Positions 22,237-30,090 of a stretch of DNA of 64,000 bases are shown here, in pieces (the stretch's first letter is position 1; each line of letters begins with the position of its first letter). This stretch comes from Streptomyces spirodelae (GTDB taxonomy: Bacteria > Actinomycetota > Actinomycetes > Streptomycetales > Streptomycetaceae): NCBI RefSeq assembly GCF_017676385.1, contig NZ_JAFFZN010000004.1, positions 1 through 64,000 on the forward strand, read 5' to 3'. The translations under genes were made by a program, and so were the position numbers. The notes beneath the pieces are model-generated. The model saw only the letters and a program-made list of their open reading frames with translations. It was not told the origin of the DNA and ran no database searches.

Positions 22237-23184
22237 TCAACGGGTCCCTGGCGCTCGCCCCGTCTCCAGCCCGGCGAGGCGTGAGGTGCCCGAGTAGAGC
22301 GGTCGGCCGCAGCGCTGGACCTCCAGGCTGACCTCGCCGGTCAGATGCTGTTCGGAGTGGCCGAGCCGATGCGGGCTCAGCGCGGGAATGGGCAGCCGCA
22401 GCAATGGGCTGCCCGCGCCCTGGCCGCTCAGCCGTACCCGGTGGCGCGGACCGAGGGCCGTGAGCGACCAGCGGTCACCCCGAGCGCCACCCCGGACCAC
22501 GGCCGAGGGCGGGAACAGATCGATGCGGTGGTCCCCCGCGACCAGCACCAGCCCGCCGACGGGCACCGTACAGCGCCCCCTCCCCAGCAGCCCCCCGGCG
22601 AACGCCACCTTCACGTCGGGGCGGTCGAAACCGTGGGCCTGGCCCCACCACCAGGCCGGAGGAAAGCCGCGCCCCCACGACTTCTCCGCGTACGCCTGGC
22701 AACCCGTCAGGTCCCAGTGTTCGCCCGCGAGCCGTGCCGTGCCCTCGACCCGGGCGTCGAAGAGGTAGGGATACCAATAGTGGTTGAGCCACGGCACCAG
22801 CGAGAAGACCCCGGCGGCGGGCAGGAGCGTACGGCGGCGGGCGCGGGGAACGACGGCCAGCTCCAGGTCCACATCCGGCAGGGACACCCGCAGGCGGTCC
22901 TGCGCGAAGGAGAGCGCCGGAGCGGCATGCACGGCGAAGCGGTCGGTGTCCGCGCGTACGCCGTCGAGCGTCACCGACCGTACGAGGGAGGGGCTGGCCG
23001 CCACCACCACCGTCCCCCAGCGGCGGCCGCGCCGCTCGTTGACGCCACAGGCCACCAGCAGCACCCGGCGCCGGGCGGGGTCGGTGAACCGCCAGAGATG
23101 GCCTTCCATCGCCGACCGGTGCGAGAGCAGCGGATCACCCCACGGCAGGTCCGCGCCGGTGCGCCGCCACCACTGACGCAGCAC
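22237..23184 (-). CDS. Tocopherol cyclase-family protein (VTE1-like)
   Basis: The 315-residue protein has the hallmark of the tocopherol cyclase family. A central block with Y165, AEKSWGRGFP and WWWGQ (165-183) corresponds to the IEKDWGRSFP segment of plant and cyanobacterial VTE1, preceded by PWLNHYWYPYL (131-141) at the position of its MECYHG block. An N-terminal EGHLWRF matches EGWYFRV. The family closes the chromanol ring by adding the quinol hydroxyl to the prenyl double bond. It is shorter than plant VTE1 and lacks a transit peptide. GTG start 2 nt after the upstream stop, with a ribosome site in the end of that gene. Last gene of a four-gene operon. Confidence 0.82.
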   Translation of the reverse strand: MLRQWWRRTGADLPWGDPLLSHRSAMEGHLWRFTDPARRRVLLVACGVNERRGRRWGTVVVAASPSLVRSVTLDGVRADTDRFAVHAAPALSFAQDRLRVSLPDVDLELAVVPRARRRTLLPAAGVFSLVPWLNHYWYPYLFDARVEGTARLAGEHWDLTGCQAYAEKSWGRGFPPAWWWGQAHGFDRPDVKVAFAGGLLGRGRCTVPVGGLVLVAGDHRIDLFPPSAVVRGGARGDRWSLTALGPRHRVRLSGQGAGSPLLRLPIPALSPHRLGHSEQHLTGEVSLEVQRCGRPLYSGTSRLAGLETGRAPGTR

Positions 23185-23186
23185 CG

Positions 23187-28003: not shown

Positions 28004-28804
28004 ATGAGCCGTGCGAGTCTCGCCAAGCACCCGGACGAGGTCACCCGCATGTTCGATGAAGCGGCCGGGCGCTACGACCGCACCAACACCCTGCTCTCCT
28101 GCGGCCAGGACAGGCTCTGGCGGGCCCGCACCCGTGCGGCGCTTGCCCTCCAGCCGGGCGAGAGATGTCTGGACGTCGCCTGCGGCACCGGGGTCTCCAC
28201 CGCGGAACTCGCCCGTTCAGGGGCCACCGTCACCGGCATCGACCGCTCACCCGGAATGGTGGCCCGCGGCGCTGCCCGCTCCCTCGACCTGCGGGTCGGC
28301 GACGCCCTGCGGCTCCCCTTCGGGACGGCCGCCTTCGACGCGGTGACCATCATGTTCGGCCTGCGCAACGTCGTCGACCCCGGCGCGGCCCTGCGGGAGA
28401 TGGCGCGGGTGACCCGGCCCGGCGGACGGCTCGTCGTCTGCGAGTTCAGCCACCCCACCTGGGCGCCCTTCCGCACCCTGTACCTGCGGTATCTGATGGG
28501 CGGGCTGCCGCGTATCGCCGACCGGATCTCCAGCAACCCGGACGCCTACACCTACCTGTCCGACACCATCCGCGCCTGGCACGACCAGCCCTCACTCGCC
28601 TCGCTGATCCAGCAGGCGGGCTGGACGCGGGTCTCCTGGCGCAACCTGACGGGCGGCATCGTCGCGCTGCACCGTGCCGTGGCACCGGCCCAGGGCTCCG
28701 GCCCGCCCGGCGAGGGCCCGCGGCAGGAACCGTACACGGCACCGCAGGAACCGCGTACGGCACCGCGACCGCACACGGCACCACGCCGGGAGCCCGCCGT
28801 ATGA
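28004..28804 (+). CDS. UbiE/MenG-type C-methyltransferase
   Basis: The 266-residue class I methyltransferase has the SAM loop LDVACGTGVSTAEL and the UbiE signature stretch FGLRNVVDPGAALREMARV followed by RPGGRLVVCEFSHP. UbiE and MenG methylate prenylated quinols at carbon. Here the substrate is likely the prenylated homogentisate product, the step done by VTE3/MPBQ methyltransferase in plants. The last 35 residues are a Pro/Thr/Arg tail with short TAP repeats. AAGGAG precedes the ATG at 28004. Its stop overlaps the reductase start (ATGA). Confidence 0.9.
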   Translation: MSRASLAKHPDEVTRMFDEAAGRYDRTNTLLSCGQDRLWRARTRAALALQPGERCLDVACGTGVSTAELARSGATVTGIDRSPGMVARGAARSLDLRVGDALRLPFGTAAFDAVTIMFGLRNVVDPGAALREMARVTRPGGRLVVCEFSHPTWAPFRTLYLRYLMGGLPRIADRISSNPDAYTYLSDTIRAWHDQPSLASLIQQAGWTRVSWRNLTGGIVALHRAVAPAQGSGPPGEGPRQEPYTAPQEPRTAPRPHTAPRREPAV

Positions 28805-30090
28805 CAGGGCCGCGCAGCGAAGCGCAGGTACTCGTCGTGGGAGCCGGGCCGGCCGGAGCCACGGCCGCCTACCACCTCGCCCGCCAGGGGGTGGAGGTGG
28901 CCGTGCTGGAGAAGTCCGGCTTTCCACGGGAGAAGGTCTGCGGGGACGGCCTGACTCCGCGTGCCGTGCGGCACCTCGTACGTATGGGTGTCGACACCTC
29001 CGCTCCCGGGTGGAGCCGCAACCGCGGACTGCGGTTCGTCTCACGCGGGGTGACCCTCGAGGTGGACTGGCCGGAGAGCAACAGCTTTCCGGGCTACGGA
29101 CTGACCCGCACCCGCCACGACTTCGACCAGCTTCTCGCCGAACGGGCCGTCGCCGCCGGTGCCGTACTGTACACGCGGACCAAGGTGACGGCGCCGCTGC
29201 GGGACGCGTCGGGCCGCATCACAGGAGTTCGCGCGGTATGCGGCCCCGACGGGGAGCCACGCGACTTCTCGGCCCCTGTGGTGATCGCCGCCGACGGCGT
29301 CGCGGGACGGCTCGGACTGGCCATGGGCGTCACCCGGCTCGGCAAGCGCCCCGTGGGCACAGCCGTACGCCGCTACTACCGCAGCCCTGCCAAGCACCAG
29401 GACCCCTACCTCGAGTCCTGGCTCGACCTCCGCCGCCCGGACGGCCGCATCCTGCCCGGATACAGCTGGATCTTTCCGCTGGGCGACGGCAGGGTCAATG
29501 TGGGCCTCGGGGTGCTCAACGACTCCCGCACCGGCACCACCGACATCCGCAAGATGCTCGCTCCCTGGCTGGAGCGGACACCGCGGGAATGGGGACTGCG
29601 CGGCGAGGAACACGCCGACGGCCCGCTGCGCGGCGCGGCGCTGCCCATGGGCTTCAACCGGCTCCCGCACCACCGGCAGGGGCTCCTGCTGATCGGCGAC
29701 GCGGGCGGCATGGTCAATCCGTGCAACGGCGAGGGAATCGCCTACGCGATGGAAGCCGGGGAACTCGTGGCAGACCTCGTGCCCCAGGCCCTCAGCCGCC
29801 CCTCGGGCCCCTCACGGGACCAGCTGCTGGAGCGGTACCCCCGCGAGGTCGCCACCCGGCTGGGCCGCTACTACCGGCTGGGCCGTGTCTTCTCCTCCCT
29901 CATGGCGCGCCCGCTGTTCACCTCGCTCGTCACCCAGAACGCCGTGAAATCGCCTCCCGTCATGGCCGCCATGGTGCGGCTGCTGTCGAACCTCTCCGAC
30001 CGCCCGGGGGCCGACGCCGTCGATCACCTGGTGAACACGCTGGTCCGGGTGTTCCCCCGGGACAAGGAACTGGGCGCTCGCCACCGCTGA
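28801..30090 (+). CDS. Geranylgeranyl reductase-family FAD oxidoreductase
   Basis: This 429-residue flavoprotein has the N-terminal dinucleotide motif VVGAGPAGATAAY and the family motif KVCGDGLTPRAVRHL. The second FAD motif reads LLIGDAGGMVNPCNGEGIAY. These enzymes reduce double bonds of geranylgeranyl chains: ChlP for phytyl, archaeal GGR, and actinobacterial menaquinone reductases. In this operon it could saturate the prenyl donor or the prenylated product, which would decide between tocotrienol-like and tocopherol-like output. Translation is coupled to the UbiE gene by ATGA. The paralogous UbiE-GGR pairing in Streptomyces menaquinone loci is a possible ancestor. Confidence 0.9.
   Translation: MTGPRSEAQVLVVGAGPAGATAAYHLARQGVEVAVLEKSGFPREKVCGDGLTPRAVRHLVRMGVDTSAPGWSRNRGLRFVSRGVTLEVDWPESNSFPGYGLTRTRHDFDQLLAERAVAAGAVLYTRTKVTAPLRDASGRITGVRAVCGPDGEPRDFSAPVVIAADGVAGRLGLAMGVTRLGKRPVGTAVRRYYRSPAKHQDPYLESWLDLRRPDGRILPGYSWIFPLGDGRVNVGLGVLNDSRTGTTDIRKMLAPWLERTPREWGLRGEEHADGPLRGAALPMGFNRLPHHRQGLLLIGDAGGMVNPCNGEGIAYAMEAGELVADLVPQALSRPSGPSRDQLLERYPREVATRLGRYYRLGRVFSSLMARPLFTSLVTQNAVKSPPVMAAMVRLLSNLSDRPGADAVDHLVNTLVRVFPRDKELGARHR

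Follow-up and report, generated by a model that had tools for sequence, protein, structure and literature searches.

Does a non-photosynthetic actinomycete carry a dedicated gene set for a vitamin E-type lipid? The question is raised by a locus of Streptomyces spirodelae at positions 22237-30090 of the first 64,000 nucleotides of contig NZ_JAFFZN010000004.1, the whole stretch being called here the window. The locus comprises seven genes in two divergent, translationally coupled operons, as a sequence-only reading of this DNA had claimed; all seven were confirmed present, with overlapping starts and stops. The product of the cluster is predicted, with fair confidence, to be a chromanol lipid of the vitamin E type, with tyrosine and a prenyl diphosphate, likely C20, as its precursors.

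The seven genes and the block they form

The minus-strand operon is formed by tocC, pps, ubiA and cmt. In coordinate order these encode a tocopherol-cyclase-family (PF14249) protein of 315 aa with a predicted role in chromanol ring closure (tocC, 22237-23184, GTG start); a short-chain polyprenyl diphosphate synthase of 377 aa, predicted to form geranylgeranyl diphosphate (GGPP) (pps, 23187-24320; PF00348, 180 bits); a membrane UbiA-type, MenA-like prenyltransferase (ubiA, 24317-25477; PF01040, 86 bits versus a cut-off of 34.2); and a SibL-like aromatic C-methyltransferase (cmt, 25474-26571). The plus-strand operon comprises hppd (26818-27978), a dedicated second 4-hydroxyphenylpyruvate dioxygenase (HPPD); ubiE (28004-28804), a MenG/UbiE-type C-methyltransferase predicted to act on a prenylated quinol; and ggr (28801-30090), a geranylgeranyl-reductase-family flavoprotein. 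Family calls were made with Pfam and NCBIfam profiles against their cut-offs, and the Pfam ones were passed by both the UbiA protein and the polyprenyl synthase. Gene starts were refined via upstream sequence and start/stop overlaps of the GTGA or ATGA type, which link cmt with ubiA (the GTGA of ubiA overlapping the cmt stop), ubiA with pps, and ubiE with ggr (the ATGA of ggr overlapping the ubiE stop). The open reading frame 28165-30090 was discarded as an over-long call of the reductase, whose true start is 28801.

Relatives of tocC occupied 152 stretches in a scan of named genomes, of which the best 80 were fetched and read, gene presence being called by tblastn at E 1e-6. The five-gene core tocC, ubiA, cmt, hppd and ggr was found together in 10 of these best 80 loci (L015-L023 and L061), all of them from Streptomycetaceae and with the same divergent layout; ubiE was present in eight of the ten and pps in six. 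The cluster, for which the sequence-only reading knew of no counterpart, is thus not unique, its five-gene core recurring in ten named genomes. Its carriers include S. albus NRRL B-1811, S. smyrnaeus DSM 42105, S. niger NRRL B-3857 and, with no ubiE in its locus, W. vitaminophila. DNA similarity to the ten loci lies almost wholly within 22228-30075; beyond it, S. smyrnaeus still matches at 10398-12626 and 20640-22124 and S. albus (L020) at 10877-12512, and two further pieces measure 102 and 130 bp. Since similarity is restricted in this way, the block is, as judged by DNA comparison, a self-contained unit.

A tocC search of 394 genomes of the family gave matches in five, namely the own genome, G146 (77%; taken to be the same record as L016), G008 (49%; taken to be the same record as L061), G258 (fragments) and G318 (weak). 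The G258 fragments (L010, 12809-13221), one of them with in-frame stops, are likely a decayed cassette remnant to judge from their sequence; none of the other six genes was matched in the 20 kb read around them.

Enzymes of the cassette and their relatives

The cassette HPPD is placed in its equivalog (TIGR01263, 397 bits versus 277), as had been claimed, and matches the S. avermitilis HPPD 1t47 with E 1.3e-125. Residues H190, H273 and E354, which we take to be the iron ligands, and F364 and F369, presumably the C-terminal phenylalanine pair of the substrate site, are invariant in 11 of 11 cassette rows. A housekeeping HPPD is encoded on contig C23 (449 bits, 56% identical to the cassette HPPD) and the homogentisate dioxygenase HmgA on contig C56 (715.3 versus 510.75 bits). 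Because of these two genes tyrosine degradation is, by gene inventory, separate from the cluster, and the earlier statement that its genes are absent holds for the cluster and not for the genome. Among 28 HPPDs chosen for a tree, the 11 from cassettes are divided from every housekeeping (8) and type-2 (5) protein by a branch with support 99/98.

The NxxxDxxxD and DxxxD motifs of the prenyltransferase UbiA are kept without change in all 11 rows, and the protein falls below every NCBIfam cut-off listed. Its search against the 394 genomes matched 10, three of them cassette genomes, and nine non-cassette loci were read from the remaining seven; a phylum-wide search at E 1e-40 matched the own genome alone (1 of 396). 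Of the loci read, the five with the non-cassette UbiAs nearest by identity (53-57%, L123-L127) are those in which UbiA adjoins an HPPD gene in all five loci, and no HPPD match was found beside the four more distant ones (L128-L131). Two database proteins are fusions: P0170 joins a UbiA to the N-terminal half of an HPPD (46% identity over 147 residues), and P0227 joins an O-methyltransferase-fold enzyme (33% to the cassette methyltransferase over 315 residues) to a UbiA. In the UbiA tree the 11 cassette proteins are not one clade; ten group at 100/98, and that of L023 pairs, with weak support (88/79), with database protein P0168. This UbiA family would use homogentisate (HGA) or a close relative. 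The chromanol logic is strengthened by the conservation of the block, the separate HPPD lineage, the HPPD genes adjoining the nearest UbiAs and the UbiA-HPPD fusion.

The synthase encoded by pps lies below all NCBIfam equivalog cut-offs; it has a DDxxD motif at 127-131 with Phe at position -5, from which, on our assumption of the chain-length rule, GGPP is the predicted product.

The protein described earlier simply as a second methyltransferase is indeed a methyltransferase and more exactly a SibL-like aromatic C-methyltransferase (CMT), its best PDB match being SibL (4qvg, E 1.9e-108). In the passages of the SibL study drawn on here, Tyr134 acts as the base with Asp132, together with Tyr295; the amino-acid tail of the substrate is gripped by Asp292, Tyr288 and His335; the His/Asp pair of O-methyltransferases is replaced by Val/Ile; and AcmI and AcmL are named as relatives (PMC4426599). 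These positions were mapped onto CMT by counting along the SibL alignment, SibL being the only protein compared. The equivalents of Asp132, Tyr134, Val248/Ile249, Asp292, Tyr295, Phe296 and His335 show no variation among the 11 rows (among them D152, Y154, V268, I269 and Y315 of CMT), which makes the protein a C-methyltransferase of the SibL type: it keeps the catalytic Asp/Tyr pair and the substrate-carboxylate His, and the O-methyltransferase His/Asp dyad is absent. It differs from SibL in having Val at the position of Tyr288, and in its context, a prenylquinol-type pathway and not antibiotic synthesis. CMT would act early, on a small phenolic acid. A further enzyme, SfmM2, C-methylates tyrosine and requires the amino-acid function, according to an excerpt of its description (PMC13109631).

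Membership of UbiE in the UbiE/MenG family, also claimed before, is borne out (NF001241, 339.4 versus 327 bits); the protein scores 165 versus 335 bits with the methyl-plastoquinone methyltransferase MpqE model (NF052510). A housekeeping UbiE, 59% identical to that of the cassette, adjoins MqnC on contig C15. The geranylgeranyl reductase that had been proposed (here 28801-30090) stands as a member of the superfamily (TIGR02032, 236.5 versus 158.8 bits) and not as a ChlP (TIGR02028, 47.2 versus 505.3 bits); with the menaquinone reductase MenJ model (NF045655) it scores 251.3 versus 700 bits.

Predicted route and competing explanations

The substrates, the order of the steps and the product that follow are those we infer from the genes. 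The cassette HPPD would form HGA. CMT would C-methylate tyrosine, 4-hydroxyphenylpyruvate or HGA ortho to the hydroxyl; a methyl group ortho to the tyrosine hydroxyl would come, with the side-chain shift of HPPD, to tocopherol C7 or C5. UbiA would then attach the prenyl chain to HGA or methyl-HGA, CO2 being lost, with GGPP supplied by the cassette synthase or, where pps is lacking, by primary metabolism. UbiE would methylate the prenylated quinol, its methyl group landing next to the prenyl carbon, and the reductase would remove between one and three double bonds of the chain, either in GGPP itself or once the chain is attached to the quinol. Finally, protonation by TocC of the chain double bond closest to the ring would let the phenol form the six-membered chromanol ring. 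Both methyltransferases together would give an alpha-type (trimethyl) ring; where the locus has no ubiE, as in two relatives, the ring would be of gamma or beta type (dimethyl). Tocopherol, tocotrienol and intermediate chain reduction may all be compatible with this route.

Three known systems can be set beside it. The plant and cyanobacterial tocopherol pathway (HPPD, homogentisate phytyltransferase (HPT/VTE2), VTE3, VTE1, VTE4 and ChlP) shares an HPPD of the same equivalog and a PF14249 protein, and a prenyltransferase, a reductase and two methyltransferases as roles. In the cassette, however, UbiA is MenA-like and under the HPT cut-off, the reductase is under that of ChlP, one methyltransferase is SibL-like, and the genes are clustered with a prenyl diphosphate synthase in non-photosynthetic hosts. 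The tocopherol-like pathway proposed by the sequence-only reading is therefore upheld by the gene set, by PF14249 and by the chromanol logic, and not as a simple equivalent of the plant or cyanobacterial one. The menaquinone end-steps (MenA, UbiE/MenG and MenJ) resemble the cassette UbiA, UbiE and reductase by sequence, whereas the cassette adds HPPD and TocC, and the futalosine-route MqnC and MqnP and another UbiE are located on other contigs of the same genome. The third comprises the actinomycete clusters of L123-L127 (G203, G238, G098, G209 and G046), all five of which share with the cassette HPPD, the same UbiA family and a prenyl diphosphate synthase. They differ in containing a squalene-hopene-type class II cyclase (confirmed with Pfam in L123, L126 and L127) and an acyltransferase (PF01757; confirmed with Pfam in L123), the other calls being by tblastn; in lacking any tocC, cmt or ubiE match, with weak reductase-like matches in L124 and L125 only; and in having HPPDs that group among the housekeeping ones. 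By these comparisons the pathway is seemingly a variant rebuilt from menaquinone-type and antibiotic-type parts.

How far the chromanol reading can be carried depends first on TocC, and here, as with UbiA, UbiE, the reductase and HPPD below, part of the evidence weighs against it. TocC passes the PF14249 cut-off with 52.9 versus 26.6 bits, as had been claimed for the product of 22237-23184; this class is profile-based, and the match spans only positions 145-334 of the 335 of the profile. The profile gave a single match in the own genome and none over the cut-off in 14 control genomes, and the best E of a sequence search of solved structures with TocC was only 0.25. Among the invariant residues of TocC are E27, Y165, E167 and E307. 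The structural model shares its fold with kievitone hydratase, an enzyme that hydrates a prenyl double bond, and this fold is also that of Diels-Alderases, hydratases, AttH and 25-phosphosteroid lyase. Moreover, for 70 of the best 80 TocC relatives the DNA read contained none of the six remaining genes, some of these contigs being only 3.7-12 kb, and the family name is consequently no proof of the reaction: PF14249 was rejected as evidence of tocopherol synthesis by itself. Fold and distribution would both suit a product that stays open, namely a prenylated benzoquinol or benzoquinone made from HGA and resembling plastoquinone or ubiquinone, which would serve as redox lipid or antibiotic, with TocC doing, for example, chain hydration. 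We regard this as unlikely, given that TocC is over the PF14249 cut-off, that HPPD, prenyltransferase, reductase and C-methyltransferases fit chromanol synthesis, and that cmt was found in none of the nine non-cassette loci from the independent UbiA search, so that among these no cmt was seen without tocC. The count of ten core-carrying loci cannot itself show that tocC is indispensable, because these loci were found through tocC.

The acceptor of UbiA is the other point at which the reading may fail. With the homogentisate phytyltransferase model (NF009525) UbiA scores 21.3 versus 226 bits, a score on which orthology to the plant and cyanobacterial HPT prenyltransferase was rejected; its best match is a MenA-type model (59.4 versus 264 bits), no listed MenA cut-off being passed. 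UbiE passes the demethylmenaquinone-methyltransferase equivalog cut-off, and the reductase resembles MenJ, which saturates one bond only. In the trees, an 86/95 branch parts the cassette side of the UbiAs from L123-L127, which are thus not sisters, and a long branch connects L130 and L131, two of the distant UbiAs without an adjoining HPPD, to the cassette side; likewise the 99/98 branch leaves three distant HPPD-like rows, L148-L150, together with the cassette proteins, so that no closed cassette HPPD clade is shown. The acceptor could accordingly be a different phenol, for instance a naphthoate or a hydroxybenzoate carrying a C-methyl group, yielding another meroterpenoid with HPPD in a side role, and the MenA-type scores, the UbiE cut-off and the distant UbiAs favour this. 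Against it stand the HPPD genes beside the five nearest non-cassette UbiAs, the fusion P0170 and the cassette itself, in which Pfam and NCBIfam recognised no further aromatic-acid-forming gene. The naphthoate is further disfavoured by the own genome, in which no MenB passes its cut-off (best 130.5 versus 342.7 bits) and MqnC (454.5 versus 428.1 bits) and MqnP (462.5 versus 420 bits) are present; 1,4-dihydroxy-2-naphthoate is for these reasons probably not made and not the acceptor. On balance an acceptor other than HGA or its methyl derivative seems improbable, somewhat more so than the open-chain product. That the seven are paralogues of quinone metabolism brought together by chance, with no common product, fits the absence of pps and ubiE from some relatives and is very hard to reconcile with the divergent layout kept in ten named loci, the sharp borders of similarity, the start/stop codon overlaps and the separation of the cassette HPPDs and TocCs from other copies.

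The chromanol reading also has a bolder version, held here tentatively. In this version a full vitamin E pathway would have arisen in Streptomyces independently, making an alpha-tocopherol-class chromanol from a compact mobile cassette: only HPPD and the cyclase family would be shared with plants and cyanobacteria, the prenyltransferase and the reductase would have come from menaquinone-type enzymes, and one ring methyl would be set before prenylation by the antibiotic-type, SibL-like enzyme.

Surroundings, precedent and meaning

The two operons are separated by 246 bp (26572-26817), a shared intergenic region that is possibly a bidirectional promoter/operator. Its conserved core, GGCCTGCGGCGTCAAATATTCACTTGGCTGAGTGACCGGAC (about 26657-26700), is mostly kept in S. 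smyrnaeus and S. oryzae (three genomes including the own one) and is a candidate for a shared operator. A promoter scan found no sigma-70 consensus in this region, Pfam identified no regulator gene among the seven of the cluster, and no tRNA was found within the window. Just past the cluster, 30197-33007 encodes a UvrA-like ABC protein (685 bits versus a UvrA cut-off of 729.8), of a kind tied to drug self-resistance; it was considered as a member and placed outside the cluster, because DNA similarity to relatives ends at 30075. On the other side, an argininosuccinate-synthase-family gene (20658-22124) is convergent with tocC, and S. smyrnaeus has a stretch 94% identical to this region at the corresponding side of its cassette, about 6 kb off.

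The cassette TocCs are separate from other TocC copies in a quick tree without bootstrap, in which 80 of 81 rows were kept by the length filter. The 70 loci with TocC only are mostly from Mycobacterium and its kin, and many mycobacteria have a TocC relative of about 40% identity with no HPPD, UbiA or methyltransferases nearby. Neighbours were scanned by Pfam in five of these 70 loci: DUF808, a 134-aa glyoxalase-family protein and a short-chain dehydrogenase/reductase (SDR) in L049; an esterase and an acyl-CoA dehydrogenase in L025; an SDR in L091; and, for L030 and L092, nothing with a Pfam match among the genes taken. Three contigs labelled as a Bifidobacterium breve metagenome-assembled genome (L057, L066 and L076) are probably mis-binned or mislabelled, since their TocC sequences group with Mycobacterium or uncultured actinobacteria.

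As a label the family is known already: 'tocopherol cyclase family protein' is what TocC homologues are called in public databases. What appears to be new is the conserved cassette, together with the pathway it would encode. Among the matches listed in open-licence literature, judged by title and opening of the abstract and with subscription papers and preprints outside, none described an actinomycete or bacterial chromanol, tocopherol or HGA-meroterpenoid cluster. Passages of related papers report that a Streptomyces raises tocopherol in its plant host (PMC13055315) and mention tocotrienols in engineered microbes (PMC12525779), and according to a 2017 review vitamin E-like chromanols are made by photosynthetic organisms only (PMC5745509).

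If the chromanol reading is true, such synthesis would no longer be confined to photosynthetic organisms, an actinomycete outside that group having its own dedicated cassette, and the pathway would be one that can be built from different parts. The cassette would also offer a gene set small enough to clone for the production of vitamin E-type lipids and a bacterial model for a TocC-type cyclase. For the organism itself, it raises the question of what role a membrane antioxidant or signalling chromanol would have in a bacterium that does not photosynthesise.

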